From positions 1 through 24,579 of the IMG/VR virus record IMGVR_UViG_3300035180_000686: a stretch of DNA of 24,579 nucleotides; one strand, written 5' to 3'. Source of the stretch: a virus. Positions 4,741 to 21,841 of this stretch are shown in pieces (positions within the stretch are counted from its first letter, which is position 1; every line of letters begins with the position of its first letter). The notes beneath the pieces were generated by a model. It had not been told where the DNA came from. It ran no database searches and saw nothing but the letters and a program-made list of their open reading frames with translations. The position numbers and the translations under genes were made by a program.

Positions 4741-4760
4741 ACGGTGTTCTGGAACACTGT
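4741..4760 (+). repeat. Palindromic element copy 1 (leader of 4798 gene)
   Basis: ACGGTGTTC-TG-GAACACTGT. The arms carry a paired change relative to the family (GTGTTC/GAACAC instead of GTGTGC/GCACAC), so pairing is kept. The third position of the right outer arm is T, giving a G.U pair in RNA. It is followed by TTAGAATTTTTACTTACTTA, shared with copy 2. Confidence 0.85.
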
Positions 4761-4797
4761 TAGAATTTTTACTTACTTATTTTTGAAAGGTAACATC

Positions 4798-4956
4798 ATG
4801 GCTACATATCACATTTTTGACGTTCAGCAAAAACTTATCAAGGCTGTTGATAGCCTTGCAACGCCTGTTTTTTATTCTGGCATTGAATTTGATGTTAGAT
4901 TTGCCGCTGGCCTCTTGGCTTGTCCTCACGCCGTTTTTTTTAGCGGCTTGGGATAA
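4798..4956 (+). CDS. Small hypothetical protein, possibly frameshifted
   Basis: A 52-residue frame starts at ATG 4798 after a GAAAGG ribosome site, in the same leader context as the larger gene at 5142. The product begins MATYHIFDVQQKLIKAVDSL and has no recognised family. Near its end is a run of eight T (4934-4941). A shift from frame 1 to frame 2 at this run would replace the last four residues with about 24 more, ending at 5014 (...HSDLPMFAYVD). This could be programmed slippage, a decayed gene or a sequencing error; the unshifted 52-residue form may equally be correct. The gene lies between a promoter and a second, duplicated promoter. Confidence 0.5.
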   Translation: MATYHIFDVQQKLIKAVDSLATPVFYSGIEFDVRFAAGLLACPHAVFFSGLG

Positions 4957-5020
4957 TCTGCACTTTGCAAGCGCAGGGCATAGCGACTTGCCAATGTTTG
5001 CATACGTGGACTAACCCACA

Positions 5021-5049
5021 TTGACTTATGCGCCTGATAAGCGCACAAT
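5021..5049 (+). promoter_or_regulatory. Promoter of the 5142 gene
   Basis: TTGACT (5021-5026), 17-nt spacer, CACAAT (5044-5049). It aligns through the spacer (GCCTGATAAG) and downstream leader with the 4678 promoter, so the two control regions are tandem duplicates of about 120 bp. The palindrome starts 34 nt after the -10. Confidence 0.65.
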
Positions 5050-5083
5050 AGTCACATCAGTTAGACAATAACGCCTGACTGAT

Positions 5084-5103
5084 ACGGTGTGCTAGCACAC
5101 TGT
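5084..5103 (+). repeat. Palindromic element copy 2 (leader of 5142 gene)
   Basis: ACGGTGTGC-TA-GCACACTGT. The inner 14 bp are a perfect DNA palindrome. The outer right arm has T opposite G (a G.U pair in RNA). It is followed by the same T-rich TTAGAATTTTTACTTACTTA as copy 1. Confidence 0.88.
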
Positions 5104-5141
5104 TAGAATTTTTACTTACTTACATAAAGGATTTATATATC

Positions 5142-5942
5142 ATGGCTAATTCTATCAACACAACAACCGCATACGACGTTATCGCATTGGGCGCATCCAT
5201 TGGCGATGCAATTTTTTCCGTAGGCATACACGAAGCGCAGGCAAACATGGGCAAGGCTTCACTAAAAGATACTATTCTCAACAGTATAATGGAGCTTCGT
5301 ACATACCACGTTTCACAGCAGGGTGAACAGCATCAGGCATATATTGCCGGATGTATAGCCTTGTTTGGAGACGGCGTATATAACGCCAAAAACTATGTTG
5401 CAGGGTCTGTGCGTCAAGCCGTTGAATCCAGCTTACGGGCAAGAAAAGCCGCCCATAAATCAGCATTTATGAAAACCCGCGGCGTGACAGCCAAAAAGCC
5501 AGCGACAGAAGCGGATTTGCTGGCATATGCGGGTATTGCCAAGGTATTAGATTTTGAAGCTGACAAGGTAATAAGCGGGTTAAAATCCGCTTTAATGCGG
5601 GCGCGTATGATATACCGTGCGGCGTGGTCTTGCCCGTCAATTATGACAGACGATAGCGGCGCGTATCGTGGGCTGAATACCATATACTCCGACGCGTCGG
5701 AGTTGGTAAAGAATAAAACAGTAACAGCTAAACCCACGGCGCAAACGTCCACAGACAAGGGCGCAGACGCGCCAAGCGGTAAGGCGGCTAATAATAAAGA
5801 AGCATTTGAGATGATTATCGCAAAAGAAAGTCCAGCGACGGTTATATCGTGGATGATAGAACTATTAGCATCGGAAACAACATACGCGAAGAAACACGCG
5901 TTGCAGTTAAAGACGCTTGAGGCATTAAAAGCTCAGCTATAA
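5142..5942 (+). CDS. Hypothetical early protein, 266 aa
   Basis: I do not recognise this protein. It starts at ATG 5142 after TAAAGG and ends just before two strong terminators, so with its own promoter it forms a monocistronic unit. The N-terminal two-thirds look helical, with conserved-looking Tyr/Trp in the middle (RMIYRAAWSCP, about residues 154-164). A flexible Thr/Ala/Lys/Pro-rich linker follows (about 195-217, with TAKPTAQTSTDKGADAPSGK), then a short helical tail ending LKTLEALKAQL. There is no signal peptide or membrane segment. The folded domain-linker-tail layout and isolated strong expression unit suggest an abundant early protein, for example a nucleic-acid-binding or host-takeover protein, but that is only inference. 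Confidence 0.8.
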   Translation: MANSINTTTAYDVIALGASIGDAIFSVGIHEAQANMGKASLKDTILNSIMELRTYHVSQQGEQHQAYIAGCIALFGDGVYNAKNYVAGSVRQAVESSLRARKAAHKSAFMKTRGVTAKKPATEADLLAYAGIAKVLDFEADKVISGLKSALMRARMIYRAAWSCPSIMTDDSGAYRGLNTIYSDASELVKNKTVTAKPTAQTSTDKGADAPSGKAANNKEAFEMIIAKESPATVISWMIELLASETTYAKKHALQLKTLEALKAQL

Positions 5943-5960
5943 TCTAACCGCTAAACTCTC

Positions 5961-5988
5961 AGCCCGCCCCTAAAAGGCGGGCTTTTTT
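5961..5988 (+). terminator. Intrinsic terminator 1 after the 5142 gene
   Basis: A perfect 8-bp stem AGCCCGCC / GGCGGGCT (5961-5968 with 5976-5983), a 7-nt loop CCTAAAA and a six-T run. It lies 18 bp after the stop of the 5142 gene. Confidence 0.93.
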
Positions 5989-6006
5989 GCGTCTGTAAAA
6001 TCCTTG

Positions 6007-6031
6007 CCCACGGCTTGCCGTGGGTTTTTTT
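6007..6031 (+). terminator. Intrinsic terminator 2, tandem
   Basis: CCCACGGC (6007-6014) pairs with GCCGTGGG (6017-6024) around a 2-bp center (the effective loop is 4 nt), followed by seven T. It backs up terminator 1 and isolates the downstream control region from the 5142 unit. Confidence 0.92.
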
Positions 6032-6045
6032 CGCCCTGAATTTTC

Positions 6046-6065
6046 ACGGTATGCCAGCACACCGT
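6046..6065 (+). repeat. Palindromic element copy 3
   Basis: ACGGTATGC-CA-GCACACCGT. One arm position is changed (A opposite C). It lies in non-coding DNA 14 bp after terminator 2. Confidence 0.78.
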
Positions 6066-6136
6066 AGCCGCGCGGAGCGCGATACCGTAGTAACAAGCGC
6101 GTGGCAAGTGTGTGTGGTACAGACGTATGGAGCGTG

Positions 6137-6156
6137 ACGGTGTGCTGGCACACTGT
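6137..6156 (+). repeat. Palindromic element copy 4
   Basis: ACGGTGTGC-TG-GCACACTGT, 33 bp after the first 26-bp repeat ends. The right arm has T opposite G. Confidence 0.85.
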
Positions 6157-6197
6157 ATAGGTGTATAGGCGATACCGTAGTAACAAGCGCGTGGGTA

Positions 6198-6217
6198 ACG
6201 GTGTGCTGGCACACTGT
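6198..6217 (+). repeat. Palindromic element copy 5
   Basis: Same sequence as copy 4, 4 bp after the second 26-bp repeat. The right arm has T opposite G. Confidence 0.85.
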
Positions 6218-6374
6218 GTCCTACAGACCTATGGAGTAGCACACACGATACACGTGTATGGAGCGATAACTAACAAATTCGATGAATGGGCAAAAATGCA
6301 AATATACGTGATACAGACGTATGGAGCGATAAATACGAAAGTCGATGAATCATACTGGATAGGTGTGTATGGAG

Positions 6375-6948
6375 TAGCACACGGCAAAATAATAAAAACG
6401 CATATCGCCAAATAGCATCAGGATTTCAAGAATAGAAAAAAAACTTATATGCAGCCACCACTTTTATTGTGCGGAAATGCCCACGAAATCAAGGGGTTAT
6501 AAAGGTGGACACCACTTGAATAATTTACTGCTTAGTTGGGGGTGTTTTTATCGCCGCTGGAGGCCACGGAATATATAGGAATAAATAAATACTCTATGGT
6601 AAGTAATACAATTAAACAATAAAGCAGACAAAAAAAAGGGTGTGTTTATACGCGCGCGAGGGATACAAGGTATGTTAGTAAATCGCATGGAAAAAAGTAA
6701 CAACGATGGCATAAAAGTTATACAAGCCTCATAATATAATAACACCGCCTTTTCCAGACTGCTTTTTCTGGTTAGTTGCTTAATCGGTTGCTATTCGTGG
6801 CTTACAAGCCACCACCTTTTTCCGCCTACCCTACCAAGTTCAGCATTTCGCATGATATAAGTATATGATTATAGGCACTAAGCAGACGGATAGACAGCTA
6901 AACAGCATAATGATTTTTGACCCCCGAAATAATGCTATTTGATCAATC
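6375..6948. other. AT-rich non-coding stretch
   Basis: About 570 bp without a convincing gene: frames are short and lack ribosome sites. It holds A- and T-runs, an alternating CGCGCG at about 6651, a TATAAT at 6735-6740 without a good -35, and a hairpin plus T-run at 6797-6821. It may be part of a replication origin or a non-coding RNA locus, but nothing else can be supported. Confidence 0.55.
6797..6821 (+). terminator. Possible intrinsic terminator in the non-coding region
   Basis: GTGGCTT (6797-6803) pairs with AAGCCAC (6806-6812), giving an effective 4-nt loop, followed by CACC and five T (6817-6821). A second short hairpin CCAGA...TCTGG lies just upstream (about 6755-6772). It could end a small RNA or transcription entering from the left. 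The stem is short, so confidence is moderate. Confidence 0.45.
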
Positions 6949-7012
6949 TCGTTTCTATTTGGCACTTTTCGTTTCTATTCGGGTGGATAACCTGCATTTC
7001 GTATCTATTTGG
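6949..7012 (+). promoter_or_regulatory. Three phased direct repeats upstream of the 7019 promoter
   Basis: TCGTTTCTATTTGG occurs at 6949-6962, as TCGTTTCTATTCGG at 6969-6982, and as TCGTATCTATTTGG at 6999-7012. The starts are 20 and 30 bp apart, and the -35 element begins 20 bp after the third start. All are multiples of about one helical turn, so bound proteins would sit on one face of the DNA beside RNA polymerase. This fits an activator or cooperative repressor site. Confidence 0.65.
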
Positions 7013-7018
7013 AGCTCC

Positions 7019-7047
7019 TTGACATATACACCTATAGAGCGTATAAT
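7019..7047 (+). promoter_or_regulatory. Consensus sigma70 promoter of the main rightward operon
   Basis: Perfect TTGACA (7019-7024), 17-nt spacer and perfect TATAAT (7042-7047). The spacer starts TATA and the -10 is followed by AG, as in the promoters at 9700 and 19577. The predicted start is near 7054; the palindrome begins 35 nt after the -10. Confidence 0.88.
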
Positions 7048-7082
7048 AGTATCTAAGTGGGAGAGGTATCTCAACCACCTGC

Positions 7083-7102
7083 ACGGTGTGCCAGCACACT
7101 GT
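7083..7102 (+). repeat. Palindromic element copy 6 (leader of 7138 operon)
   Basis: ACGGTGTGC-CA-GCACACTGT, in the 5' leader, 35 nt before the start codon. It is followed by CATTACTTAACT and a CAGGAG ribosome site. The right arm has T opposite G. Confidence 0.88.
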
Positions 7103-7137
7103 GGAATCCGAAACATTACTTAACTCAGGAGAACGTC

Positions 7138-7359
7138 ATGTTACATTTACTAAACACCCGCATCGAAGAACTGTACAGCCTATCCAACGCAACAATGGAC
7201 GATATGTACGCAAGCAACACCCGCATCAACCACGTAAGGGAGTTCACCTCTCACATAGAGGCAGAAAACTTCCTATTCGAGTGCAACCACCGCTGCACTG
7301 TAGAAGACTATAGCGACCCAGACACGGGTGCGTTCGTCATTGTTATGTGGGAGGCGTAA
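7138..7359 (+). CDS. Small hypothetical protein, first gene of the main rightward operon
   Basis: The 73-residue product starts at ATG 7138 after CAGGAG; an in-frame upstream ATG at 7057 lies in the leader before the hairpin and is not used by a ribosome site. The protein (MLHLLNTRIEELYSLSNATM...) is acidic, likely helical at the N-terminus, and ends with an FVIVMWEA strand. No family is recognised. It is the first gene after the strongest promoter in the window, so it should be among the earliest and most abundant products. Its TAA stop overlaps the next start (TAATG), so translation of the next gene is probably coupled. Confidence 0.7.
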   Translation: MLHLLNTRIEELYSLSNATMDDMYASNTRINHVREFTSHIEAENFLFECNHRCTVEDYSDPDTGAFVIVMWEA

Positions 7360-7808
7360 TGGATATGCCTCGTAAACCCACTACAAACGCCGCCAGTGCA
7401 TCCAATCGCGCCGGCAATACCAACACAGCCAACGGTGTGCCAGCACACCGTACAGCCCCAACCACACAGACCCACATGGTGGTGACATTCGGGTGGGGTA
7501 GTAGATACGTGCTACCCATTGAAGCCGCGTTAGAGCTACAGCGCGTCATGGCGCAGGCGATACGGGTAGAAAGCGCGTGCAGCTTAGTTGGGAACCACGA
7601 CCTATGGGTGCGTAATCTGTCGAATATAGACGTGGTTACAAACTTCGTGTCCGCAGACGATGAGTACGCTGTAGATAGAACAACCGCCGACGGAGACATT
7701 ATCGCCTACGCCACCACATACAGAGCCACCAAAGAACTAGGCGGAGACGAAGCAGTATCAGGGCTGACCTTTGCCAAATACACAGCAGAAAAAGGAGCAA
7801 CAGCATGA
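7359..7808 (+). CDS. Hypothetical protein, 149 aa
   Basis: The start is taken as ATG 7359, which overlaps the previous TAA and has GGGAGG 4 nt upstream; ATG 7365 is an alternative. The N-terminal 35 residues are Ala/Asn/Thr-rich and probably disordered, and contain a palindromic-element copy read as NGVPAHRT. The rest alternates strands and helices (MVVTFGWGSRYVLPIEAALELQRVM...) and carries an acidic EYAVDRTTADGDI segment. No known family is recognised. It ends with an ATGA overlap onto the next gene. The predicted disordered N-terminus means the palindrome there could have inserted without harming a fold. Confidence 0.75.
   Translation: MDMPRKPTTNAASASNRAGNTNTANGVPAHRTAPTTQTHMVVTFGWGSRYVLPIEAALELQRVMAQAIRVESACSLVGNHDLWVRNLSNIDVVTNFVSADDEYAVDRTTADGDIIAYATTYRATKELGGDEAVSGLTFAKYTAEKGATA
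7432..7451 (+). repeat. Palindromic element copy 7 (inside the 7359 gene)
   Basis: A perfect 20-bp copy, ACGGTGTGCCAGCACACCGT, read in frame within NGVPAHRT in a low-complexity N-terminal region. Confidence 0.9.
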
Positions 7809-8272: not shown

Positions 8273-8293
8273 CCCGAGCAACCAACACAACAC

Positions 8294-8313
8294 ACGGTGT
8301 GCCAGCACACCGT
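8294..8313 (+). repeat. Palindromic element copy 8 (leader of 8335 gene)
   Basis: A perfect 20-bp copy in the 62-bp gap before the DUF3150-like gene, 21 nt before its start, with no promoter visible nearby. Confidence 0.9.
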
Positions 8314-8334
8314 ACAAGCCAAAGGAGCAACATC

Positions 8335-9291
8335 ATGAGCAACATACGAAACCACGTCATGCTAGGCAGGCTATCATTCAGCGGCTGGGCGGGGGAGATT
8401 AAAGACAGCACCTCTAGTCGCAAGATAGAGGCAGATAACGGCGCGGTAGAGGGCGCGTCGAAAGCCAAGAAAGTGCTACTGCCTGGCGTAGTAGAGTTGG
8501 AGGCTATCCAGAAGTTCGCCGCCACCACCCGTACATGGTGGCATGGGGTATCAGTACCATGGGAGGATGGAGGTGCAAGGGCGTATAGTGCCGCTAGGCA
8601 CATCGAACTGCTCACCGATATAGGTGACAGACAACGCGAGTACGATAGCCTAGTAGATGCGTTCGTGTTGAAATACCCGACGGCGTATGCCGAGCAACAG
8701 TTCAGGCTTAACCACCTGTTCAACGCGGCGGACTACCCAGACCCGAGTACCATACGGGACAAGTTCGCCTTTAACTTCCACATCCGCCCGATAGCGGACG
8801 CCGAGGACATAAGAGTTATAGAGGGCTTGACCAGTCAAGAGGCAGACAGGCTGATAGCCCAAGCCAAGGAAGCCGAGCGTGAGCAGGTGCAAGCGGCGGT
8901 AGATGACGCGTATAAAAAGCTATATAAAGTAATCAAGGCAATGGCGGACAAGCTCGCCGTACCCGTGGGCGAGAAAGGTAGTATCTTTCGCGACAGCCTG
9001 ATTAGTAACATACGTGACATAGCCGAGCTAATGCCTGGGCTTAATATAACCAATGACCCGCAGTTGAACGCACTGGCGGCGAAGGCTATGCAGTTGACAG
9101 CGTACACGGCCGATGACTTGAAGTCATCGGGGCTACGTGCCGAGGTACAGAAACGTGCGGCGGAACTGGCTGGCATGTTCACTACGGTATCGCAACCAAC
9201 GTCAGCACCAACGGTGTGCCAGAACACCGTGGACACATCAATACAAGACGCCGCCGCCGCTGTGCTGGCCGGCATAAACTGGGACGAATAG
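8335..9291 (+). CDS. DUF3150-like protein, partner of the AAA/VWA module
   Basis: The 318-residue protein starts at ATG 8335 after AAAGGAG; the in-frame ATG at 8299 lies inside the palindrome and is not preferred. The N-terminus has the pattern I associate with DUF3150: a short strand (VMLGRLSFSGWAGEIKD), a Lys-rich KKVLLPG, WHGVSVPWEDGGARAYSAARHIELL, and then YPTAYAEQQFRLNHLFNAADYPDPSTIRDKFAFNF. The second half is a long helical region (about 175-300) ending INWDE. DUF3150 genes of phages and bacteria often sit next to MoxR/CobS-type ATPases and VWA proteins, as here (10463 and 12323). The biochemical role is unknown. An imperfect palindrome copy lies near the 3' end. Confidence 0.72.
   Translation: MSNIRNHVMLGRLSFSGWAGEIKDSTSSRKIEADNGAVEGASKAKKVLLPGVVELEAIQKFAATTRTWWHGVSVPWEDGGARAYSAARHIELLTDIGDRQREYDSLVDAFVLKYPTAYAEQQFRLNHLFNAADYPDPSTIRDKFAFNFHIRPIADAEDIRVIEGLTSQEADRLIAQAKEAEREQVQAAVDDAYKKLYKVIKAMADKLAVPVGEKGSIFRDSLISNIRDIAELMPGLNITNDPQLNALAAKAMQLTAYTADDLKSSGLRAEVQKRAAELAGMFTTVSQPTSAPTVCQNTVDTSIQDAAAAVLAGINWDE
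9211..9230 (+). repeat. Palindromic element copy 9 (inside the DUF3150-like gene)
   Basis: ACGGTGTGC-CA-GAACACCGT, with one unpaired arm change. It is read in a different frame from the other in-gene copies (TVCQNTV), in a Thr/Ser/Pro-rich linker near the C-terminus. Confidence 0.8.
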
Positions 9292-9762: not shown

Positions 9763-9782
9763 ACGGTGTGCCAGCACACTGA
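9763..9782 (+). repeat. Palindromic element copy 10 (leader of 9795 gene)
   Basis: ACGGTGTGC-CA-GCACACTGA. The last base deviates. The right arm has T opposite G. It lies about 29 nt into the predicted transcript and 12 nt before the start codon. Confidence 0.82.
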
Positions 9783-9794
9783 TACGGGGGCAAT

Positions 9795-9950
9795 ATGATT
9801 CACCTAGCACTAACCTTTATCGTCGGCATGATGGACTTTAGAGTGAACTACCCGCCATACATCGCAAGCAAGCAGGTACGAGATATGTATTACAAGGGGC
9901 AAGACTTTGCCCACACACTAACCTTTAACCACTGGAGAAACGACAAATGA
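9795..9950 (+). CDS. Small hypothetical protein, 51 aa
   Basis: A short frame starts at ATG 9795, preceded by GGGGG about 6 nt upstream, and ends with an ATGA overlap onto the next gene. The product begins MIHLALTFIVGMMDFRVNYP. Its first 13 residues are hydrophobic, too few for a confident membrane span; the rest has several Tyr and a basic-aromatic end (FNHWRNDK). No family is recognised. Support comes from the promoter, leader and start-stop overlap rather than from the sequence itself, so it could also be a leader peptide that couples translation to the 9947 gene. Confidence 0.6.
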   Translation: MIHLALTFIVGMMDFRVNYPPYIASKQVRDMYYKGQDFAHTLTFNHWRNDK

Positions 9951-10390
9951 ACACAGGCAACGGTAAATTTAAGTACACAGGAGCGAATCACAACGGGGTG
10001 GTAAGCACCCGCGCAGTAGAGGCCGCACTTGGTCACCACTTCCAGCCACAAGGCGACATGGACGAGCTACTTGCCACGCTCATGGCGGCTGACGTGACTA
10101 CGGTATTGCCTGACGGTGTGCTGGCACACGGTTGGTGCGCTGATATGAGTGTGCTGGAGCTGGCACAGGAAGCATTCGGCATGGCAGTGATGCTGGACGA
10201 ATACACCCGCTTTGTTGGCAATGAGCGTGTGTTGAACCTGATAGCGGCCATTGAGTCGACCATCGCACCTGATGGCGACCTGATTACAATGGACATGAAC
10301 CGAATCCTAACCGCACTAGCAATACTTAAAGGCGACCATGTGGCGGCAACGTCACCAGCGTCACCTGAACCAGAACTCGTAGCAGAGTAA
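9947..10390 (+). CDS. Hypothetical protein, 147 aa
   Basis: The frame begins at ATG 9947, overlapping the previous stop, with GGAG upstream. It has a short N-terminal part (KFKYTGANHNGVVSTRAVEAALGHHF), then mostly helices with many Met and acidic residues (VLELAQEAFGMAVMLDEYTRFVGNERVLNLIAAIESTI). The C-terminus is Pro/Ala/Glu-rich (ATSPASPEPELVAE) and probably disordered. A palindrome copy in the middle is read as PDGVLAHGW. No family is recognised. It is the gene before the AAA ATPase in the same transcription unit, so it may work with that module, but nothing in the sequence proves it. Confidence 0.78.
   Translation: MNTGNGKFKYTGANHNGVVSTRAVEAALGHHFQPQGDMDELLATLMAADVTTVLPDGVLAHGWCADMSVLELAQEAFGMAVMLDEYTRFVGNERVLNLIAAIESTIAPDGDLITMDMNRILTALAILKGDHVAATSPASPEPELVAE
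10113..10132 (+). repeat. Palindromic element copy 11 (inside the 9947 gene)
   Basis: ACGGTGTGC-TG-GCACACGGT, with one right-arm mismatch. It is read in frame as D-G-V-L-A-H-G. Confidence 0.8.
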
Positions 10391-10400: not shown

Positions 10401-10420
10401 ACGGTGTGCCAGCACACCGT
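10401..10420 (+). repeat. Palindromic element copy 12 (leader of the AAA ATPase gene)
   Basis: A perfect 20-bp copy in the 72-bp gap before the AAA ATPase, 42 nt before its start. It is followed by an A/T-rich stretch and TTAGGAG. Confidence 0.9.
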
Positions 10421-10462: not shown

Positions 10463-11584
10463 ATGCAAGCACTTCGACTCAAAGACGTACCAAATGTTCT
10501 CGTCCGTAACTACTTGGCAAAGACCAACGTGTTCCTAGCATCGAAACCCGGCATCGGCAAGACAGATACAGTGGAGTTGTTCATCCGTAAAATGCAGGAG
10601 CGCACCGCTGGCTTCCAAGCATGGCACTTCTATGGTCCGAGCCTTAGCCCAACAGATATCCAGATGGCTATGCCTGATACCGAAACAGGGCTGATGAGAA
10701 TCTTTAACAACAGCCAGCTACCCAATGCGTATACCCACCCAGAGTTACAGGGCGTCGTGTTCATTGGTGAGATGCCGAATACTGACCCGACCACGTTGAA
10801 GCAGTTGCAGAAGTACGTGAACGGCGAGGACATGAACGGGCTACGTAAACCCGATGGTGTCATGGTGATTGCCGACGGTAATCGTCTGGCTGATAAGGCT
10901 GGCGTACTGCAACAAGGTCGTGCACTGATGAACAGGTTTCTGTCCATAGATGTATATACAGAAGCCGAGGACTGCATCGAGTACGCAGTGAAGCATGAGT
11001 GGCACTCATCGGTACAGTCGTTCTTGCGGGAGTATCCTCACCTCATAGATAACTACGACGAGGTGTTCCAAACCACGGCGTCAGCGCGGGAAGCCGCGGA
11101 AGTGAACCGCCGCAATGGCGGAACGGACGCACAGGCCGAGGAGGGCAAGGCTGGTATCTGGGCAAGTATGCGTGGCTGGAACCGCGTGTCGAACCTTGAG
11201 GTAGCGGGTGAGTCGCTACACAGCGAGCCTACCCCATCGGAGCTTATGGGGTCAGTAGGTACTGGCCCAGGTGCGCAGTACATAGCGCACAAGGCAATGC
11301 TGGGCAAGTTAGCCAGCTTCGCAGACATTGTCGCTAACCCTGAAAAGGTAGCCATACCTACGAAGATGGACGAGGCGTATGCCCTGTCTACAGTGGTGGC
11401 TGTACGTTGCCAAGCCGAGCAACTGGCGGCGGTATATAAGTTTGCTAAGCGGTTACCGCACGACTTGCAAGCGTACATCCTGCGTACCATGATAATGCGT
11501 AAGAACTTCCCGCTGTTGGGTAGCGTTGAATACCGTGAGTGGATACGTGACCCACAGTTGAATCAGTTGATCACCGCACGGTAA
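10463..11584 (+). CDS. MoxR/CobS-type AAA+ ATPase
   Basis: The 373-residue protein has an AAA+ core near the N-terminus. It shows Walker A SKPGIGKT (residues 27-34), Walker B VVFIGE (98-103) with Glu as catalytic base, sensor-1 Asn in IADGNR (Asn140) and a likely arginine finger in LMNRF (Arg158). This layout, without an N-terminal domain, matches the MoxR/CobS-like group, whose members remodel or insert metal into targets together with VWA proteins. The rest is helical. The gene starts at ATG 10463 with AGGAG and ends TAATG, overlapping the next start. Its VWA partner lies 740 bp downstream. I infer a MoxR-VWA pair; the target is unknown. Confidence 0.88.
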   Translation: MQALRLKDVPNVLVRNYLAKTNVFLASKPGIGKTDTVELFIRKMQERTAGFQAWHFYGPSLSPTDIQMAMPDTETGLMRIFNNSQLPNAYTHPELQGVVFIGEMPNTDPTTLKQLQKYVNGEDMNGLRKPDGVMVIADGNRLADKAGVLQQGRALMNRFLSIDVYTEAEDCIEYAVKHEWHSSVQSFLREYPHLIDNYDEVFQTTASAREAAEVNRRNGGTDAQAEEGKAGIWASMRGWNRVSNLEVAGESLHSEPTPSELMGSVGTGPGAQYIAHKAMLGKLASFADIVANPEKVAIPTKMDEAYALSTVVAVRCQAEQLAAVYKFAKRLPHDLQAYILRTMIMRKNFPLLGSVEYREWIRDPQLNQLITAR

Positions 11585-11823
11585 TGGACGCGCCACTACG
11601 TGACGGGTGGATGAGGGCTAGGGGCAACTCCTACACATACCATTTATCGACCAGCGACGATACCCCCCCAAACTATGGCTTCGTCAGCAGGATGTACAGT
11701 GGTGATGGGTGGGGTGGAGTAGTGTTTACCCATGGCGATGAAGACCTGAATGCGCCCAACATACCTACACTAGAGGAGGCTATGATATGGGTAGAGACGA
11801 CGTCCGCACTAGCGAGAGAGTAA
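11584..11823 (+). CDS. WVE-family small protein A
   Basis: A 79-residue protein begins at ATG 11584, sharing one base with the TAA of the ATPase gene (translational coupling). The pattern is LRDGW near the N-terminus, a central GDGWGGVVF strand, and a C-terminal helix LEEAMIWVETTSALARE. It is the first of three tandem paralogs with the same C-terminal helix. No known domain is recognised. The last 37 bp of this gene also encode the first residues of paralog B in another frame. Small, acidic and soluble; likely an accessory or target of the AAA/VWA proteins on both sides, but that is inference. Confidence 0.75.
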   Translation: MDAPLRDGWMRARGNSYTYHLSTSDDTPPNYGFVSRMYSGDGWGGVVFTHGDEDLNAPNIPTLEEAMIWVETTSALARE

Positions 11824-12041
11824 CGCTACGTGACGGGTGGGAGCAGGCGTTCAACGGCGGCTACGAATTTGTAGTGGACGATAGTGTACGTGGTTTTGTA
11901 TGGCGTAGCTACGATGGTAGCGGGTGGGTAGGGGGGATAGTTATCGATGGCCGTGTCGCAGACCCCCACCAGTACCACATACCTACACTAGAGGAGGCTA
12001 TGATATGGGTAGAGACGACATACGCACTAACGAGAGAGTAA
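11787..12041 (+). CDS. WVE-family small protein B
   Basis: The 84-residue frame begins MGRDDVRTSERVTLRDGW at ATG 11787 and overlaps gene A by 37 bp. GAGGAGG, inside the end of gene A, lies about 8 nt upstream, so it is a plausible ribosome site. The protein keeps the family pattern LRDGW, GSGWVGGIVI and EEAMIWVETTYALTRE. It is 218 bp out of register with paralog C, which shows a tandem duplication. No catalytic residues are visible. Function unknown. Confidence 0.75.
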   Translation: MGRDDVRTSERVTLRDGWEQAFNGGYEFVVDDSVRGFVWRSYDGSGWVGGIVIDGRVADPHQYHIPTLEEAMIWVETTYALTRE

Positions 12042-12259
12042 CGCTACGTGACGGGTGGGGGGAGTCACTTAATGACGTATACGACTTTGCCATCGACGAC
12101 GTGATATGCGGGTTTGTCGTCAGTATGCCTGATGGGTGCGGATGGCTGGGGGCGGTACTTGCCAATGGCCGTGGCGACGACCCACCCGGATGCCGCATGG
12201 ATACTATAGAGGAGGCCATGATATGGGTAGAGACGACATACGCGCTAACGCGGGGGTAA
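12005..12259 (+). CDS. WVE-family small protein C
   Basis: The 84-residue frame begins MGRDDIRTNERVTLRDGW at ATG 12005 with GAGGAGG upstream and overlaps gene B by 37 bp. It is the most diverged in the middle (DDVICGFVVSMPDGCGWLGAVL) yet retains both ends, as expected if the ends are constrained by the overlapping frames. An earlier in-frame start at 11924 exists but has no ribosome site and would overlap gene B much further. It is followed by a truncated fourth start. Confidence 0.75.
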   Translation: MGRDDIRTNERVTLRDGWGESLNDVYDFAIDDVICGFVVSMPDGCGWLGAVLANGRGDDPPGCRMDTIEEAMIWVETTYALTRG

Positions 12260-12318
12260 TACTACGGTATCGGTGTGCCAGCACACTGTGCCAGAAACAC
12301 AACTTAACTAAGGAGTAA
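12223..12318 (+). pseudogene. Truncated fourth copy of the WVE array
   Basis: The junction at the end of gene C again carries GAGGAGG and an ATG (12223) encoding MGRDDIRAN, the same start as B and C. After about 11 residues the homology stops and the frame reads through the palindrome leader to 12318, 31 codons in all. It looks like a remnant of a deleted unit or the leftover of the duplication process. It is probably not functional, although it could still be translated as a short peptide. Confidence 0.6.
12270..12289 (+). repeat. Palindromic element copy 13 (leader of the VWA gene)
   Basis: TCGGTGTGC-CA-GCACACTGT, 33 nt before the VWA start. It is followed by ACAACTTAACTAAGGAG, a leader nearly shared with copies 6 and 14. 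The right arm has T opposite G. Confidence 0.85.
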
Positions 12319-12322: not shown

Positions 12323-13504
12323 ATGCAAGCAAATCTAACAGCAGATGCGGCAGTAAGACTAATGCTCAACTTCCCAATGATTTCGGAGCTGTACTACAGC
12401 ATGGCGATCATTGCGGATGAAAACGTAGGTACACTGGCAACGGATGGGCGCACCATGTGGGTATCGCCTACATTCTGGAAAGGGCTTACCCTCGAACTAA
12501 AGGTAAGCGCGTTAGCGCACGAAGTAGTGCATAAGATGCTACTCCACTGCTCACGCCGTGGGCATCGTGATGCGAAGCTATGGAATGTGGCCGCTGACTA
12601 TGTGGTGAATGGGTTGCTCAAGCAGAACGGCATGAGCATTGGCAAAGACTGGATACAGCCACTGGATAAGTACATAGGCTGGAGCGTTGACGCGGTGTAC
12701 GCCGACTTATTGCGGGAGCTTGGTGAGCCTGACAATGCGGGCGAGGGCGAGGGCGAGGGCGAAGGTGAAGGTGAAGGTGAAGGTGACAGCGGTGGCATGG
12801 GCATACCCAAGTCAGTAGAGGGTAAGGCATGGGACGACATCAAGGAGGTGACAGGTAGTCCAGAAGAAGTGGCTAAGTATGAATCTGACGTCATGACGGC
12901 GGTGAATAAGGCGTTGATGTCAGCACAAGCCATGGGTAAAGTACCTGTTGGCATGGGCAACTTCGACAACGTGTTCATCGCTACCGCAGAGCCATGGTAC
13001 AACCACTTGGCTAGGTTCATGCAGAGTCTGTCCGTGTCAGAGTTTAACTGGGCACGAGTGAACAAGCGCAACCTAGTAAGCCACGGATTCTTTAGCCCAC
13101 ACGTGTACTCGGAAAGTCTGGGCGAAGTCGTGGTCGCAATAGACTGTTCAGGCAGTGTATACGGCCCAGCAGAGCAAGCAGGGTTCGCAGGGCACGTTAG
13201 TGCCATATTGTCGGAAGCCAAGCCAGCCAAGGTGCATGTGCTGTACTTCGACAGTCGGATACAGCGCCACGAGGAGTTAGACCCTGGCCTTATGGACTTC
13301 AGCACTCACCCCAAGGGCGGCGGCGGCACGGCGTTTGAACCTATATGGGGCTGGTGTGAGTATGAGGGCGTTGTGCCCGCAGTATGTATCGTGCTGACAG
13401 ATACCTATGGTAGCTTTGGACAAGAGCCAGAGTATCCTGTGATATGGGCAAGCATAGAGGAGAACGTGACCGTTCCATTCGGGGAGTTGATATATGTCCA
13501 ATGA
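12323..13504 (+). CDS. Metallopeptidase-like/VWA protein (CobT/DUF2201-like)
   Basis: The 393-residue protein has two recognisable parts. The N-terminal part carries a zincin-like signature, ALAHEVVHKMLLHCSRRGHRDAKLWNVAADYVVN, with HExxH at 66-70 and Asp92 as a possible further ligand. The C-terminal part has a VWA MIDAS, VVVAIDCSGSV (Asp274, Ser276, Ser278), and a later VLTDTYG. They are joined by a GEGEGE run (about 140-154). This architecture matches DUF2201 putative metallopeptidase/VWA proteins, usually paired with MoxR-type ATPases such as the one at 10463. Peptidase activity is not established for the family. The start has AAGGAG, and the stop overlaps the next gene by 11 bp. Confidence 0.88.
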   Translation: MQANLTADAAVRLMLNFPMISELYYSMAIIADENVGTLATDGRTMWVSPTFWKGLTLELKVSALAHEVVHKMLLHCSRRGHRDAKLWNVAADYVVNGLLKQNGMSIGKDWIQPLDKYIGWSVDAVYADLLRELGEPDNAGEGEGEGEGEGEGEGDSGGMGIPKSVEGKAWDDIKEVTGSPEEVAKYESDVMTAVNKALMSAQAMGKVPVGMGNFDNVFIATAEPWYNHLARFMQSLSVSEFNWARVNKRNLVSHGFFSPHVYSESLGEVVVAIDCSGSVYGPAEQAGFAGHVSAILSEAKPAKVHVLYFDSRIQRHEELDPGLMDFSTHPKGGGGTAFEPIWGWCEYEGVVPAVCIVLTDTYGSFGQEPEYPVIWASIEENVTVPFGELIYVQ

Positions 13505-13935
13505 CCAGTTACCCCGGTGGGAGATAGTTACAGACCACCACAGCCAATACTTTACCCGACAAAACACGTGGGCGGCGGCGGGTGCGGTGTGGTTCACCCC
13601 AGATAAGGGGGGAATGTGGGGCGCACACGTGAGGGTACCTGGCAGTAATTCGCGTAGTGCGCACCTCGTGACCGAAGCAGAAGCCAAGGCGTGGGTGGAG
13701 CTGACGGTGGGATTGATATATGTCCAATGACCAGTTACCACGGTGGGAGAAAGCTCCACACCACAACAGCCGATACATTACCCGACCAAACACGTGGGTA
13801 CCAGCGGGTGCGGTGTGGTTCTACCCACAGAAAAACGTATGGACTGCACACGTGCGGGGCGTCATGCCGAGCGATATATACTTCGCGACCGAAGCAGAAG
13901 CCAAGGCGTGGGTGGAGCTGACGGTGGGATTGATA
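13487..13935 (+). repeat. Second tandem duplication (genes D and E)
   Basis: The 27-bp sequence beginning TTGATATATGTCCAATGACC occurs at 13487-13513 and 13713-13739. A 49-bp block at 13670-13718 appears identical at 13887-13935. The duplicated 5' segment includes the start region, so the first copy reuses the end of the VWA gene (LIYVQ) and the second the end of gene D (LIYVQ). Confidence 0.88.
13494..13730 (+). CDS. WVE-family small protein D
   Basis: The 78-residue frame starts at ATG 13494, 11 bp inside the VWA gene. GGGGAGTTGATAT upstream supplies the ribosome site. It begins MSNDQLPRWE and ends TEAEAKAWVELTVGLIYVQ. The middle (AVWFTPDKGGMWGAHVRV) has the strand-turn-strand look of genes A-C, and the C-terminal helix with a WVE-T core suggests the same family despite little other identity. 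It is a tandem duplicate of gene E. No known function. Confidence 0.78.
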   Translation: MSNDQLPRWEIVTDHHSQYFTRQNTWAAAGAVWFTPDKGGMWGAHVRVPGSNSRSAHLVTEAEAKAWVELTVGLIYVQ

Positions 13936-13945: not shown

Positions 13946-14191
13946 ATGGAAGCAGAATGGAGCGTAATGCGTGGGGGGTATGAGTATGTACGAACGTACC
14001 CGACTAAATTTGGCAACCTTGGGGCTAAGAAGCACAGGGTACGACTGGCGATTGTAGCGGGTTGCTGCGACAGTGACACAATGCAGGCATACTACAGAGC
14101 TACGGTTCTCGGTAGCGAGGCAGGGCGGTTCGATACCAAGGAGGATGCAATGCGCTGGGTAGAGGCTACGGTGATACTGCAACAAGAGTGA
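13946..14191 (+). CDS. WVE-family small protein F
   Basis: An 81-residue frame starts at ATG 13946 after GATAGGAGG, one base after the stop of gene E. It begins MEAEWSVMRGGYEYVRTYPT and ends FDTKEDAMRWVEATVILQQE, so it keeps the C-terminal WVE helix of genes A-E. The centre is longer and more basic, with a Cys pair (GCCDS). It is the most distant member of the array. Its TGA stop shares a base with the next palindrome copy, so ribosomes finish directly on that hairpin. Confidence 0.75.
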   Translation: MEAEWSVMRGGYEYVRTYPTKFGNLGAKKHRVRLAIVAGCCDSDTMQAYYRATVLGSEAGRFDTKEDAMRWVEATVILQQE

Positions 14192-14210
14192 CGGTGTGCT
14201 GGCACACTGT
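14191..14210 (+). repeat. Palindromic element copy 14 (leader of the 14241 gene)
   Basis: ACGGTGTGC-TG-GCACACTGT, beginning on the last base of the previous stop codon and 30 nt before the next start. It is followed by CATTACTTAACTAGGAG, the shared leader. The right arm has T opposite G. Confidence 0.88.
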
Positions 14211-17793: not shown

Positions 17794-18060
17794 ATGCAAG
17801 TGAAAATGACTGTTGATGATGCGTTAGAGTTTGCAGATGAGTGGGGGCAAGGTATGACATTCCACGAAGAATCGCAAGGCTGGTGGGTAGTGTGCGCCAT
17901 ACTTGCCGCTGAGGTTAGGCAGCTGCGAAAACTTAACTCACCACTTGACGATAACAACAGGTTGAAGAAAGAAAATCTAGTATTGAAGCTGCAACTACTG
18001 AGCATTGAGCAAAGTCATACAGTTAAATTAACGCCTGCGTGTGTAGTGATAGCGAAATGA
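17794..18060 (+). CDS. Hypothetical phage protein, 88 aa
   Basis: The frame starts at ATG 17794 and shares its first codons (MQV) with the preceding miniprotein. The product MQVKMTVDDALEFADEWGQGMTFHEESQGWWVVCAILAAEVRQLRKL is a common layout in small phage proteins: an acidic helical start, a Trp pair, then a longer helix running into LKKENLVLKLQLLSIEQ, with coiled-coil character. Function unknown. Ends in an ATGA overlap. Confidence 0.75.
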   Translation: MQVKMTVDDALEFADEWGQGMTFHEESQGWWVVCAILAAEVRQLRKLNSPLDDNNRLKKENLVLKLQLLSIEQSHTVKLTPACVVIAK

Positions 18061-18227
18061 AACTAAATAAACCAGAGAAACTTACAAAGATTCGGGATGA
18101 GGTAGAGGAATTTATTGCGGCGCACGAACTGAAAACCCATCACTACCTGTCGGACACGGAAATAATAGCCGAGTTTAGTATATACAAAAAGAAGCACGTG
18201 AGAGAAGCGATTAACAACCTGAGATGA
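18057..18227 (+). CDS. Small hypothetical protein, possibly DNA-binding, 56 aa
   Basis: ATG 18057 overlaps the previous TGA. The 56-residue basic product (MKLNKPEKLTKIRDEVEEFI...) has a central HYLSDTEIIAEFSIYKKKHVREAINNLR. This could be the helix-turn-helix half of a winged-helix-type fold (SDTEIIAEF as first helix, KKHVREAINNLR as second). The evidence is only the pattern and small size. It is followed by AGATGAGGAAATC and the next gene at 18238. Confidence 0.62.
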   Translation: MKLNKPEKLTKIRDEVEEFIAAHELKTHHYLSDTEIIAEFSIYKKKHVREAINNLR

Positions 18228-18402: not shown

Positions 18403-18868
18403 ACGTATACACCACAGGTACACTATCGCGCAGGGTAGACGCCAGCAGATACTCGACGCGCTTAATACCAACATAGAAGATGGTCGCATCGTCCCTATGA
18501 AGGCTAGAGATATACGGGAGAAGCTAGACCCGTACATAGCGCAGATACACCATATATTGACAGGCATGGAGGAGCTGGGGGAAGTATCACGCACAAGCTA
18601 TGGCTACTTACCACTGAAGGACACCACTGCCGAACCTGTGGGGGTACTTAAAATAGGTAGGGATACCCCAAAGAAAAGAAAAGGCACGCGTGGTACAGTG
18701 CCCCGAGAGCGTATAATACCCCAGATGTCAGACCCAGTACCGCCGGGGTGTGTGCGTAGCGTGATACACGTGTGTAGCCAGACTGAGTCGAAACCGACAG
18801 AGCCTAGAGGCAAACGGAATATTAGGCATGACGCCAGCGGCGCAAGTCTTAGCAGTGTTTATTGGTGA
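18377..18868 (+). CDS. Winged-helix candidate regulator, 163 aa
   Basis: I chose ATG 18377 because GAGGAGG lies 8 nt upstream; the in-frame ATG at 18344 has no such site. Residues about 10-75 fit a winged helix: helix RQQILDALNTN, recognition-like RDIREKLDPYIAQIHHILTGMEELGEVSRTSYGYLPL with a wing at the end. It is followed by a basic, Pro-rich tail (TPKKRKGTRGTVPRERI) that could contact nucleic acid. This is the best candidate transcription factor in the window and could act at the repeat elements, but no binding site is proven. The C-terminus is probably disordered. Confidence 0.7.
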   Translation: MPSLPSTAERIHHRYTIAQGRRQQILDALNTNIEDGRIVPMKARDIREKLDPYIAQIHHILTGMEELGEVSRTSYGYLPLKDTTAEPVGVLKIGRDTPKKRKGTRGTVPRERIIPQMSDPVPPGCVRSVIHVCSQTESKPTEPRGKRNIRHDASGASLSSVYW

Positions 18869-18887
18869 TTCACAACAGGAGAGCAAC

Positions 18888-19118
18888 ATGAGATTACATA
18901 CGCTACACTACACAACAAAAGAAACAAACGGGCTAAAGGTAGAATGGTTCGGCACCGAACGTGAGGCGATACAGCGCCGTGGGGAACTGTTTGCATCGGG
19001 GGTTTGCGTGGGACTTAAACGCCAGCAGATGATATACCCAGTCGACGTGCCTACGAAGAAAGAAGACTTGCTGGATTGGTTGCGCGAGCAGGAAGCACAA
19101 CGCGACGTACGTGGCTAA
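18888..19118 (+). CDS. Hypothetical protein, 76 aa
   Basis: I chose ATG 18888 after ACAGGAGAGC; the in-frame ATG at 18828 would overlap the previous gene by 41 bp and lacks a ribosome site. The product MRLHTLHYTTKETNGLKVEWFGTEREAIQRRGELFASG has a strand-helix pattern similar to small phage proteins with a TEREA motif, and ends DVPTKKEDLLDWLREQEAQRDVRG. It resembles a single compact alpha/beta domain of about 70 residues. Function unknown. Confidence 0.72.
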   Translation: MRLHTLHYTTKETNGLKVEWFGTEREAIQRRGELFASGVCVGLKRQQMIYPVDVPTKKEDLLDWLREQEAQRDVRG

Positions 19119-19127
19119 GGGTACATC

Positions 19128-19340
19128 ATGGACGGAGTAGATAAGGCCGCGGACCCGATAGACCACTCAGCCAATATGCAGGCGAAGATGGATCAAGCAC
19201 AGGTAGACATCATACGTAGGGAAGCGCAGAAGCCTATACCTACGTCTAAGGTGTGCCTGTATTGTGCAGAACCAACAGAAGCAGGAGCACGATGGTGCAA
19301 TGGGTTCTGTAGGGATAGGTGGCAGGCAGATAGGAGGTAG
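19128..19340 (+). CDS. Small C4 zinc-finger protein (DksA/TraR-like in style)
   Basis: The 70-residue protein has a charged helical N-terminus with ADPIDHSANMQAKMDQAQVDIIRREAQ, then a zinc site C43-x2-C46 and C57-x3-C61 (CLYCAEPTEAGARWCNGFCRDRW). This is like the short TraR/DksA-type proteins that phages use to act on RNA polymerase through its secondary channel, but the second pair is C-x3-C and the usual DxxDxA tip is not clear. A generic small zinc-binding phage protein is the alternative. The start at 19128 has AAGGG upstream. Confidence 0.72.
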   Translation: MDGVDKAADPIDHSANMQAKMDQAQVDIIRREAQKPIPTSKVCLYCAEPTEAGARWCNGFCRDRWQADRR

Positions 19341-19344
19341 CATA

Positions 19345-19575
19345 GTGGTAGATATTTTATGGTCGCGAGAGCGCACCCAGCACCGCCAAGAAGTTGCCCG
19401 CATACTACGGGAGATTACTAGTGGGGTTGTCACGGAAGTAGACCTAGCCGCGCTACACAATTTCTGCATGGTATCGTTGCAGGTACAGCACAAGATAAAC
19501 CGCAACACGTGGAAGGCGGCAGAGCGAGACGCGCTAACGATAGCGTTCCTGCGCGACGCCGTAGAGGACGCGTAG
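19345..19575 (+). CDS. Hypothetical protein with GTG start, 76 aa
   Basis: I chose GTG 19345 because GGAGG lies 7 nt upstream and the previous gene stops at 19340. An in-frame ATG at 19264 would overlap the zinc-finger gene by 77 bp. The product VVDILWSRERTQHRQEVARI is basic at the N-terminus and continues as two or three helices with EVDLAALHNFCMVSLQVQHKIN and WKAAERDALTIAFLRDAVEDA. The helical composition would suit a small nucleic-acid-binding or regulatory protein, but no family is recognised. It is the last gene before the 19577 promoter, whose -35 lies one base beyond the stop. Confidence 0.68.
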   Translation: MVDILWSRERTQHRQEVARILREITSGVVTEVDLAALHNFCMVSLQVQHKINRNTWKAAERDALTIAFLRDAVEDA

Positions 19576-19576
19576 A

Positions 19577-19605
19577 TTGACATATAGTGGTATATAAGGC
19601 ATAAT
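19577..19605 (+). promoter_or_regulatory. Promoter of the replication module
   Basis: Perfect TTGACA (19577-19582), 17-nt spacer and CATAAT (19600-19605) followed by AG. The spacer TATAGTGGTATATAAGG is a one-base variant of the 9700 promoter spacer. No palindrome follows at +29, unlike 4678, 5021, 7019 and 9700. Confidence 0.82.
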
Positions 19606-19634
19606 AGCAGTTCTACCTAGAGGGAGAAGTAAAG

Positions 19635-19958
19635 ATGAAATACACAGCGATCAACAGCGTGCACAAGCCTATCAGTACGCTTGAGGAAATGCTACATGAC
19701 CGTGCCGAGAGTATAAGTCCCGAGGAGCCTAAACCAGCAAAGGATACACAAGTAGGTGGTGACCACTATAAAAAGCTGGGTAGGTATCAACCTTGGGAGG
19801 TGCTAGAGCATTGGCTAACACCCGAGGAGTTCCGTGGGTATATGAAAGGTACAGCCATTGCGTATCTAGCCCGTGAGAGAGACAAGGGCGGCAATATAGA
19901 CGTAGCCAAGGCAGCGCACACCCTACAGGGGTTCCTCGAAACACTGACTAAGGAATAG
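19635..19958 (+). CDS. DUF3310 protein
   Basis: The 107-residue protein contains the DUF3310 signature VGGDHYKKLGRYQPWEVLEHWLTPEEFRGYMKGTAIAYLARERDKGGNIDVAKAAHTLQGFLE (about residues 40-102). The N-terminal 35 residues look disordered. DUF3310 proteins are very common in phage replication regions; the domain has been called nucleotide-kinase-like, but no activity is established as far as I know. It starts at ATG 19635 after GGGAGAAG, as the first gene of the promoter at 19577, and ends two bases before the polymerase gene. It is probably co-expressed with the polymerase. Confidence 0.9.
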   Translation: MKYTAINSVHKPISTLEEMLHDRAESISPEEPKPAKDTQVGGDHYKKLGRYQPWEVLEHWLTPEEFRGYMKGTAIAYLARERDKGGNIDVAKAAHTLQGFLETLTKE

Positions 19959-19960
19959 CC

Positions 19961-21841
19961 ATGGATATTGTGACGTTGGACTTCGAGACGTACTACGGGG
20001 CAGACTTCACACTATCTAAGCTAACCACAGAAGCCTACGTGCGTGACCCTCGGTTCGAGGTTATCATGTGCGGGGTTAAGCGGAACGATGAGCCTGGGTA
20101 CTGGGTGGATGCACCAGATGTAGCAACACATTTGCAGACGATGGACCTTGAGAACCACGGTGTGCTGGCACACCATGCCCACTTCGACGGGCTGATACTA
20201 TCCCACCACTATGGCATTAAACCGAAGGCGTGGTTCGATACACTGTCCATGGCACGGGCTATTCATGGCGCTAACGGTGGGTTGTCACTGGCAAAGTTAG
20301 CAGAGCAATATGGGATAGGTGCCAAGGGTAATGAGGTAATACACGCTAAAGACCTGCACAGGAAGGACTTTAGCCCAAGTACCATAAAGAAGTACGGTGC
20401 GTACTGCGTACAGGACTGTGACTTGGAACGTGCGCTGTTTCTCCATCTCATGCCACACTTCTGCAAGGGGGAATTGAAGCTGATCGACATGATGATACGT
20501 ATGTTTACTGAGCCAGTGTTACAGATAGATGCACCTATGCTGGAGGAGTACGCGCAAGATATTCGGGCAGAGAAGGTTTCACTGCTACTGCAGGCTGGTA
20601 TACAGCTTACGGATGTAATGAGTAATGATAAGTTTGCCCTAGCATTGCAGAACCTTGGGGTAGTACCACCGCTCAAGGTTAGTCTGACCACCGGTAAAGA
20701 GACGTACGCTTTTGCTAAGACTGACCCCGCAATGGAGGCACTGGCGGAGCACCCAGACGAAGTAGTGCAGGCGCTTATCGCCGCTCGGCTGAAGAACAGG
20801 TCAACCATTAACGAGACCCGAGCACAGCGCATGATCGACATGATTAAGCGCGGGCCAGCCCCAGTGTACCTAAAATACTATGGCGCATCAGGAACAGGCC
20901 GAGCTTCGGGTGGCGACAAGATGAACTGGCAGAACTTCGGTAGGGGGGGTAAGCTACGCAAGTCAGTTATGGCACCGCCTGAGCATGAGATTGTGGTGGG
21001 TGACTCGTCCAACATCGAGGCGCGGGTGCTGGACGTGCTGGCTGGGCAGGAAGATGCTGTGCAGGTGTATAGGGATAACGATGCAGGTGTCGGACCCGAT
21101 ACATACTGTGTGCTTGCTGGTAAGATATACCATAGGGTCGTTACCAAGGCTGATAAGGATGAGCGGCAGTTAGGTAAAGTCGCTAAGCTAGGTCTAGGGT
21201 ATGGTATGGGTGCCGTGAAGTTTGTTTCTGCGGTCCGCGCCATGGCTAGAAAAGTAATTAGCGAAGACATGTCAGCGTCTGTAGTATCGGTGTATCGAAG
21301 CACCCACCCACACGTCATCATGCTGTGGAAACGGGCGGAAGATTCGCTCAAGTGGATACAGAAGGGCATTGAGGGTCAGGCGATAGACGTTAGTGGGGTA
21401 GTGGTAACCTGTAAAGAGGGAATACTACTACCTAACGGCATGAAGATTCGCTACCCAGACTTGAAGTACAAGCCTAAAGCGTTCGGCATGGACGTCCCAG
21501 ATGCAGGATGGACGTTCTGGAATGGTAAAACCAGAGAGAAGATATACGGCGGTAAGATAGTTGAGAACATCGTGCAAGCGCTGGCTCGCATCGTCGTTAT
21601 GGACCAGACCCTAGTAGTCGCTGAATGGTGCGCTAAGAAGGCATCCACAGCCGCCGCAGGGCAGGAATACCGAGTCGTGCTATCAGTCCACGACGAGGTA
21701 GTATCAGTTGTACCAACGCAAGACGCGGTGGAGTGTTTGGAGTTTACTAACTGGGCATTGCGTCAACCGCCCAAGTGGATGCCAAACCTGCCACTATTTT
21801 CAGAGGGTGGTATCGGTGCTCGCTACGGCGACGCTAAATAA
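19961..21841 (+). CDS. polA: Family A DNA polymerase with 3'-5' exonuclease
   Basis: The 626-residue protein is the phage replicative polymerase. It has an N-terminal 3'-5' exonuclease domain: exo I DFET (Asp7, Glu9), AHHAHFDGL for exo II, and KKYGAYCVQDCDLERALF for exo III. The polymerase domain has motif A VVGDSSNIEAR (Asp348), motif B RQLGKVAKLGLGYG (Arg402, Lys406, Tyr414) and motif C SVHDEVVSVV (Asp578). No 5'-3' nuclease is present, as usual for phage enzymes. By alignment of motif B with E. coli Pol I, Leu410 occupies the Phe762 position. Start ATG 19961 with TAAGGAA upstream, 2 bp after the DUF3310 stop. A palindrome copy lies inside the exo region. Confidence 0.96.
   Translation: MDIVTLDFETYYGADFTLSKLTTEAYVRDPRFEVIMCGVKRNDEPGYWVDAPDVATHLQTMDLENHGVLAHHAHFDGLILSHHYGIKPKAWFDTLSMARAIHGANGGLSLAKLAEQYGIGAKGNEVIHAKDLHRKDFSPSTIKKYGAYCVQDCDLERALFLHLMPHFCKGELKLIDMMIRMFTEPVLQIDAPMLEEYAQDIRAEKVSLLLQAGIQLTDVMSNDKFALALQNLGVVPPLKVSLTTGKETYAFAKTDPAMEALAEHPDEVVQALIAARLKNRSTINETRAQRMIDMIKRGPAPVYLKYYGASGTGRASGGDKMNWQNFGRGGKLRKSVMAPPEHEIVVGDSSNIEARVLDVLAGQEDAVQVYRDNDAGVGPDTYCVLAGKIYHRVVTKADKDERQLGKVAKLGLGYGMGAVKFVSAVRAMARKVISEDMSASVVSVYRSTHPHVIMLWKRAEDSLKWIQKGIEGQAIDVSGVVVTCKEGILLPNGMKIRYPDLKYKPKAFGMDVPDAGWTFWNGKTREKIYGGKIVENIVQALARIVVMDQTLVVAEWCAKKASTAAAGQEYRVVLSVHDEVVSVVPTQDAVECLEFTNWALRQPPKWMPNLPLFSEGGIGARYGDAK
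20157..20176 (+). repeat. Palindromic element copy 15 (inside polA)
   Basis: ACGGTGTGC-TG-GCACACCAT. It is read as HGVLAHH immediately before the exo II motif, where a hydrophobic-A-H sequence is usual, so the match could be partly chance. Confidence 0.65.

Follow-up and report, generated by a model that had tools for sequence, protein, structure and literature searches.

The Streptomyces phage phiC31 carries many palindromic repressor sites (CIRs) through its early region, at promoters and downstream of them. Cluster O mycobacteriophages contain more than 30 copies of a 17-bp dyad repeat with a 7-bp inverted repeat and a free 3-bp centre; these sites are both intergenic and within open reading frames (ORFs), show little orientation, occur genome-wide and are suggested to be sites for a dimeric regulator (PMC4351075). 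The L5-type operators and stoperators, more than 20 asymmetric 13-bp sites bound by a monomer, are placed at promoters and in the short gaps between genes, with an orientation that tracks transcription, and are proposed to stop both initiation and elongation (PMC9283540). In Cluster K, SAS and ESAS elements are inverted repeats that precede the ribosome sites of some of the non-structural genes, with a consensus that varies by subcluster; the ESAS has 17-bp arms and longer spacers and is tied to a 13-bp SAS, and that of Adephagia itself contains promoter hexamers (PMC3203893, PMC11373665). The putL and putR RNAs of HK022, two sites per genome, each comprise two stem-loops right after an early promoter, span ∼70 nt and form an RNA triplex (PMC9378689). 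Here we describe a 20-bp near-palindrome, ACGGTGTGCYRGCACACYGT, that is dispersed through the rightward early operon of a tailed-phage fragment, the whole 24,579-base IMG/VR record IMGVR_UViG_3300035180_000686 (the window), and that we assign to the dispersed palindromic regulatory sites.

Allowing up to three mismatches, ACGGTGTGCYRGCACACYGT is found at 15 places in the window (27 strand matches, the site being near-palindromic) and at none in 100 dinucleotide shuffles. All 15 copies lie within 4741-20176 in the rightward operon and the leftward operon (1-4410) has none, as an earlier note on this DNA had stated. The half-site is ACRGTGTGC, and two base pairs are free at the dyad, where eight of the window copies have CA, six have TG and one has TA. 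The centre is always one of these three in relatives too, a set that is closed under reverse complement and free of orientation. Four rightward promoters, called by consensus only, are each followed by a copy: P1 (4678..4706, with a poor -35 and the -10 TATAAT at 4701-4706) by copy A (4741..4760, ACGGTGTTCTGGAACACTGT), P2 (5021..5049, TTGACT/CACAAT) by copy B (5084..5103, ACGGTGTGCTAGCACACTGT), P3 (7019..7047, TTGACA-17-TATAAT) by copy F (7083..7102) and P4 (9700..9728, TTGACA-17-TATAAT) by copy J (9763..9782, 12 nt ahead of the ATG at 9795). The distance from the -10 to the start of the repeat is 34, 34, 35 and 34 nt, exactly as the earlier note had it, and in six related contigs every one of the 18 leaders has a spacing of 33-35 nt. 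The P1 and P2 leaders are a paralogous duplication, and the leaders of P1/P2, P3 and P4 are mutually unrelated in sequence yet share the spacing. The repeat keeps the same places across the contigs of close uncultured relatives (∼82-100% DNA identity across the main aligned parts) and is better conserved than its 60-nt flanks, at 0.93 against 0.78 in leaders, 0.95 against 0.82 in non-coding DNA, 0.98 against 0.81 before ribosome sites and 0.96 against 0.88 in reading frames. A stem of fixed sequence around a free centre is the pattern that a dimer binding duplex DNA would give.

The remaining copies, all on the plus strand like those at the promoters, are spread along the operon. Copy C (6046..6065, ACGGTATGCCAGCACACCGT), with a mismatch in mid-stem, starts ∼20 nt past a double terminator and is followed by the non-coding copies D (6137..6156) and E (6198..6217). 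Copy G (7432..7451) lies within ORF 7347-7808, copy H (8294..8313) is intergenic with the ATG at 8335 following after 21 nt, copy I (9211..9230, mismatch G8/A13) is close to the 3' end of ORF 8335-9291 and copy K (10113..10132, mismatch G3/G18) is within ORF 9947-10390. Copies L (10401..10420), M (12270..12289) and N (14191..14210) precede the ATPase gene at 10463 and the genes at 12323 and 14241, respectively, and eight copies in all are situated 12-42 nt upstream of a start codon. Copy O (20157..20176), within the DNA polymerase gene, encodes GVLAHHAHFD, a putative exonuclease motif, and given that coding the copy may be a chance match. The differences in copy G among relatives are all non-synonymous and each falls at a position that varies in other copies, which argues that the nucleic acid element itself is being preserved at this site.

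In having palindromes both at promoters and farther along the early genes, the window resembles phiC31 with its CIRs. With the Cluster O repeats the window shares many copies of one palindrome, fixed half-sites and a free centre, although sequence and phages are unrelated and the portion of the Cluster O report used here has some sites near predicted promoters, with neither a fixed spacing nor tandem leader hairpins described in it (PMC4351075). L5 stoperators likewise occur at promoters and in intergenic gaps, but the window site is a 20-bp near-palindrome rather than a 13-bp asymmetric sequence, and no HTH_3 repressor was found in the distant relative G003. As with the ESAS, some window repeats precede ribosome sites and the consensus differs between relatives; the gap of 12-42 nt to the ATG, with no fixed 13-bp element after the repeat, sets the window apart.

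The earlier note had placed the copies on the rightward strand and had taken a one-sided, wobble-type change as evidence for an RNA hairpin. The change of C to T at position 18, in the right outer arm, does occur in eight copies (4741, 5084, 6137, 6198, 7083, 9763, 12270 and 14191), and positions 8 and 13 of copy A have changed together (T8/A13). The only basis for the strand assignment is the asymmetry at pair 3/18, which follows transcription, whereas the centre dinucleotide does not. The mirror change in the left arm, said never to be seen, is absent from the window (no A3) but occurs in eight sequences of relatives, seven with T18 and one with C18. One-sided changes were counted as distinct per place, and these counts are not independent events, as copies share ancestry. 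Changes in the right arm outnumber those in the left by 16 to 5 (sign test p∼0.03), some of them breaking the pair. Outside pair 3/18 there are 1 G.U, 5 A.C and 4 other changes, and the wobble argument holds only at that pair. The earlier note had named relatives varying without wobble bias as an outcome that would refute the RNA reading; this is largely what is seen outside pair 3/18, also in the palindromes of the distant relatives G011 and G012, though not at 3/18 itself. By class, the G.U and A.C counts are 6 and 0 in leader copies, 4 and 4 in non-coding copies, and 1 and 3 in copies within ORFs, the last with five further mismatches. A coding-strand C-to-T mutation bias was considered as the cause of T18 and rejected (against K627 the early operon shows C/T 352 versus A/G 401, and three other comparisons are alike). 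Wobble confined to one base pair does not suffice to tell an RNA hairpin from a DNA site.

Distant uncultured relatives, namely G003 and G011 (polymerase identity 55% and 49%) and G012 (50% in the ATPase), carry palindrome sets of their own. G003 has seven copies of GTGTG(T/G)GCATGC(A/C)CACAC, with the core GTGTGC-N2-GCACAC and the spacing as in the window; all of them fall in the syntenic early part of its 63.8-kb record (60403-63489 and 455-3434). The palindromes of the other two are unrelated in sequence to the window repeat. G011 has seven copies of GACANNTGGTYGNNNNCRACCANNTGTC at 36269-45856 in the early operon, which form a 28-bp gapped palindrome, GACANNTGGTYG-N4-CRACCANNTGTC, with unpaired N positions; one adjoins the -35 of its first promoter, and several are located just ahead of ribosome sites. 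Positions 5, 6 and 13 of this set vary freely on either side without pairing (5 G.U, 5 A.C). In G012 a long palindrome, GGACRAAGCCGCG...CGCGGCTTTGTCC, occurs seven times at 48933-58805 (reverse-oriented coordinates), four of these copies being directly upstream of ribosome sites, and a hand count over the seven gives 5 G.U and 6 A.C. Shuffled genomes gave no such palindrome family. Each of the four phages has palindromes on both sides of the same first early gene (in the window the first main one, 5142..5942, plus strand, 266 aa): in the window these are copies A/B and C, and in the relatives the copies at 60403 and 61304 (G003), 36269 and 37053 (G011) and 48933 and 50063 (G012). Since the G011 and G012 sets are strand-symmetric in their variation and stand, with different sequences, at similar places, we read the sets of all four phages as duplex sites of diverged specificity. 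Rhizobium phage RHph_TM3_14A, one of the named relatives nearest by polymerase (35%; Pseudomonas phage KPP25, 32%), has ∼59 dispersed palindromes, GTTACCT-N3/4-AGGTAAC, in both operons, with 19 G.U and 20 A.C; they served as a strand-symmetry control and may be a different system, and no description of them was found in the literature searched.

We favour, with about an even chance, a reading of the repeat as a palindromic site recognised on duplex DNA by a regulator that would act as an operator or roadblock protein on rightward early transcription. The binder would be homodimeric and is probably a phage-encoded regulator of the rightward early operon. At the four promoters the site would span approximately +28 to +47, just ahead of promoter-bound polymerase, and the bound protein may block or stall the enzyme as it moves out of the promoters, and then again along the operon. 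Early transcription would be shut down or timed by an operator/stoperator logic, and related phages appear to keep the circuit but to change the sequences of the sites, as though these evolved together with the regulator. The 5' RNA hairpin that opens the P1/P2 leaders, and perhaps those of P3 and P4, may have a separate role in protecting the mRNA. A candidate binder, by its distribution only, is an 80-aa protein with four cysteines (4168..4410, minus strand) similar to phage proteins annotated as endonuclease VII: among the phages examined it co-occurs only with the GTGTGC palindrome, in two lineages, and no palindrome family was found with its distant relatives (L086-L088). A structure search with it gave no significant match. 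A 56-aa protein (18057..18227, plus strand) with a sub-threshold GntR-like match is a weaker candidate.

The leaders themselves provide evidence of RNA structure. When folded and aligned, they show an extra hairpin (hairpin 1) that starts ∼8-10 nt past the -10, near the expected RNA start and upstream of the repeat, the repeat at P1/P2 being the second of two tandem hairpins, with a weaker pattern at P3 and P4. At P1 (4714..4739, plus strand, near +1) and P2 (5057..5082, plus strand) hairpin 1 is 26 nt long and stops 1-2 nt short of the repeat. Across nine distinct P1/P2 sequences, 98.1% of the pair cells over both hairpins are standard pairs, versus 31-52% when the partner is slid, and the variation in helix 1 comprises 23 G.U cells against 2 A.C and 1 A.A. 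Hairpin 1 of P3 (7057..7078, plus strand, GTGGGAGAGGTATCTCAACCAC) is invariant in five relatives, with a fold z of about -2, and the weak, smaller hairpin of P4 (9736..9751, plus strand, TGAATCGGGCAATTCA) shows only wobble variation (three G.U changes, no A.C) and folds no more stably than shuffles. The RNA-structured leader at P1/P2 is real, its hairpin 1 covarying as sense-strand RNA. A covariance model of this leader did not extend to P3, P4 or G003, and no Rfam family reached the gathering score, the sub-threshold matches resembling terminators or chance. A general hairpin excess upstream of early-gene ribosome sites was small and mixed between phages and was not used.

Several of these observations weigh against a DNA site and for its main rival, a less probable reading in which the repeat would work as an RNA hairpin that is recognised in nascent or completed mRNA, in P1-P4 transcripts as the second of two tandem 5' hairpins, either in put- or nut-like antitermination or anti-pausing or as a site controlling the stability or translation of early genes. 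RNA acts at least beside the repeat, through hairpin 1. Nothing supports the RNA side more strongly than the covariation at P1/P2, with P4 agreeing in sign, yet what covaries there is hairpin 1. Pair 3/18 is G.U at nine loci and A.C at one, following the direction of transcription. Over 12 distinct locus sequences the leader copies always keep RNA pairing except for pair 1/20 at P4, with compensatory changes at 8/13 and with G.U but no A.C. In G003 the palindrome is the second of three contiguous predicted hairpins after a promoter, and by hand count complementarity continues outward from its core in most copies. A pair of intrinsic terminators (5961..6025, plus strand), downstream of the first main early gene, follows the first operon segment. 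No integrase (PF00589) or HTH_3 (PF01381) match was found in G003 or in the window, itself a fragment; an integrase was found in G012 and an HTH_3 in G011. The argument that the phages share the circuit by position draws on only four genomes (the window, G003, G011 and G012), with few independent changes.

Against an RNA hairpin, a conserved stem with a free loop reverses the usual mode of RNA recognition, and the copies within ORFs and copy C persist with broken pairing. The RNA reading of the earlier note gains partial support from the structured P1/P2 leader and the pairing of leader copies, but its wobble argument is weak for the repeat itself, holding at pair 3/18 only. Two stem-loops directly past an early promoter, clear at P1/P2 and weaker at P3/P4, are the anatomy of put (PMC9378689), but in the window the second stem is also dispersed without the first, interior copies lacking hairpin 1. 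No similarity to put was seen, the leader model giving no HK022 match with an E below 3.7 (E-values come from a short calibration), and 5961-6025 is the only terminator cluster that stands out near the promoters. A lambda-type nut site combines a conserved-loop hairpin with boxA and an N-like protein, and the loop of the window repeat is not conserved. One specific form we consider unlikely: polymerase would be loaded at +30 to +50 by the 5' hairpin together with the GTGTGC hairpin, for put-like processive elongation that further copies renew. If true, this dispersed RNA element would be a distributed RNA-based control of elongation, for which no earlier description was found in the literature searched. 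Phage N15 has several dispersed palindromes bound by its partition protein, and this precedent, with the ∼59 palindromes over both operons of RHph_TM3_14A, is what favours centromere-like, packaging or genome-organising sites for a ParB-like or nucleoid-type protein, with secondary effects on transcription. Such a role is improbable: no ParB_N domain (PF02195) was found in the window, as far as this fragment extends, or in G003, G011 and G012, in the four phages the copies occur in the early operon alone, and the spacing in the window's clade is linked to promoters. Copies inside reading frames in different frames, and the duplicated P1/P2 leaders, would suit a palindrome that spreads selfishly or by recombination, in the manner of REP or MITE elements, and has no regulatory role, but insertion without target preference would give neither kept places nor fixed promoter spacing, and the repeat is better conserved than its flanks, which makes this explanation very improbable. 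The most likely identity of the palindrome set is a protein-binding switch peculiar to this lineage, rather than an RNA hairpin alone.

The window has portal and terminase genes leftward at 1-4205 and early and replication genes rightward, among them a family-A DNA polymerase, a RecB-type exonuclease and a helicase. No near-nucleotide match to it was found among 50,697 phage records, and a host search found no terminase relative in bacterial genome contigs; IMG/VR records are possibly incomplete. On the minus strand, a near-consensus promoter (TTGACA-17-TATAGT, 4445-4410) has its expected start at about the ATG of gene 4410, and its leftward transcript is possibly leaderless. The divergent promoter region at 4450-4577 contains a 52-nt direct repeat, with copies at 4450 and 4526 that are 87% alike. 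A fold prediction of the first early gene product was of low confidence. Downstream of that gene, 5943-7018 is a stretch of ∼1 kb without clear genes that has AT-rich stretches and short repeats, contains copies C, D and E and might be a replication origin. Near palindromes in both phages is a conserved element, GCGATACCGTAGTAACAAG in the window (∼6090 and ∼6172) and GCGGTACTGTAGTAAT in G003 (∼61251 and ∼61356). Tandem duplications at 11695-12275 (218-nt spacing) and 13487-13935 (∼226-nt spacing) give families of small related ORFs, and a fifth promoter-like site (TTGACA-17-CATAAT, within 19577-19958) stands without a palindrome ahead of a DUF3310 gene.

In this uncultured phage group, a regulatory circuit appears to be conserved in position while its recognition sequence shifts. 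The phage series is natural material for studying how a regulator and its many sites change specificity together, and it provides a worked example of how a DNA site and an RNA hairpin are told apart by strand-specific variation.

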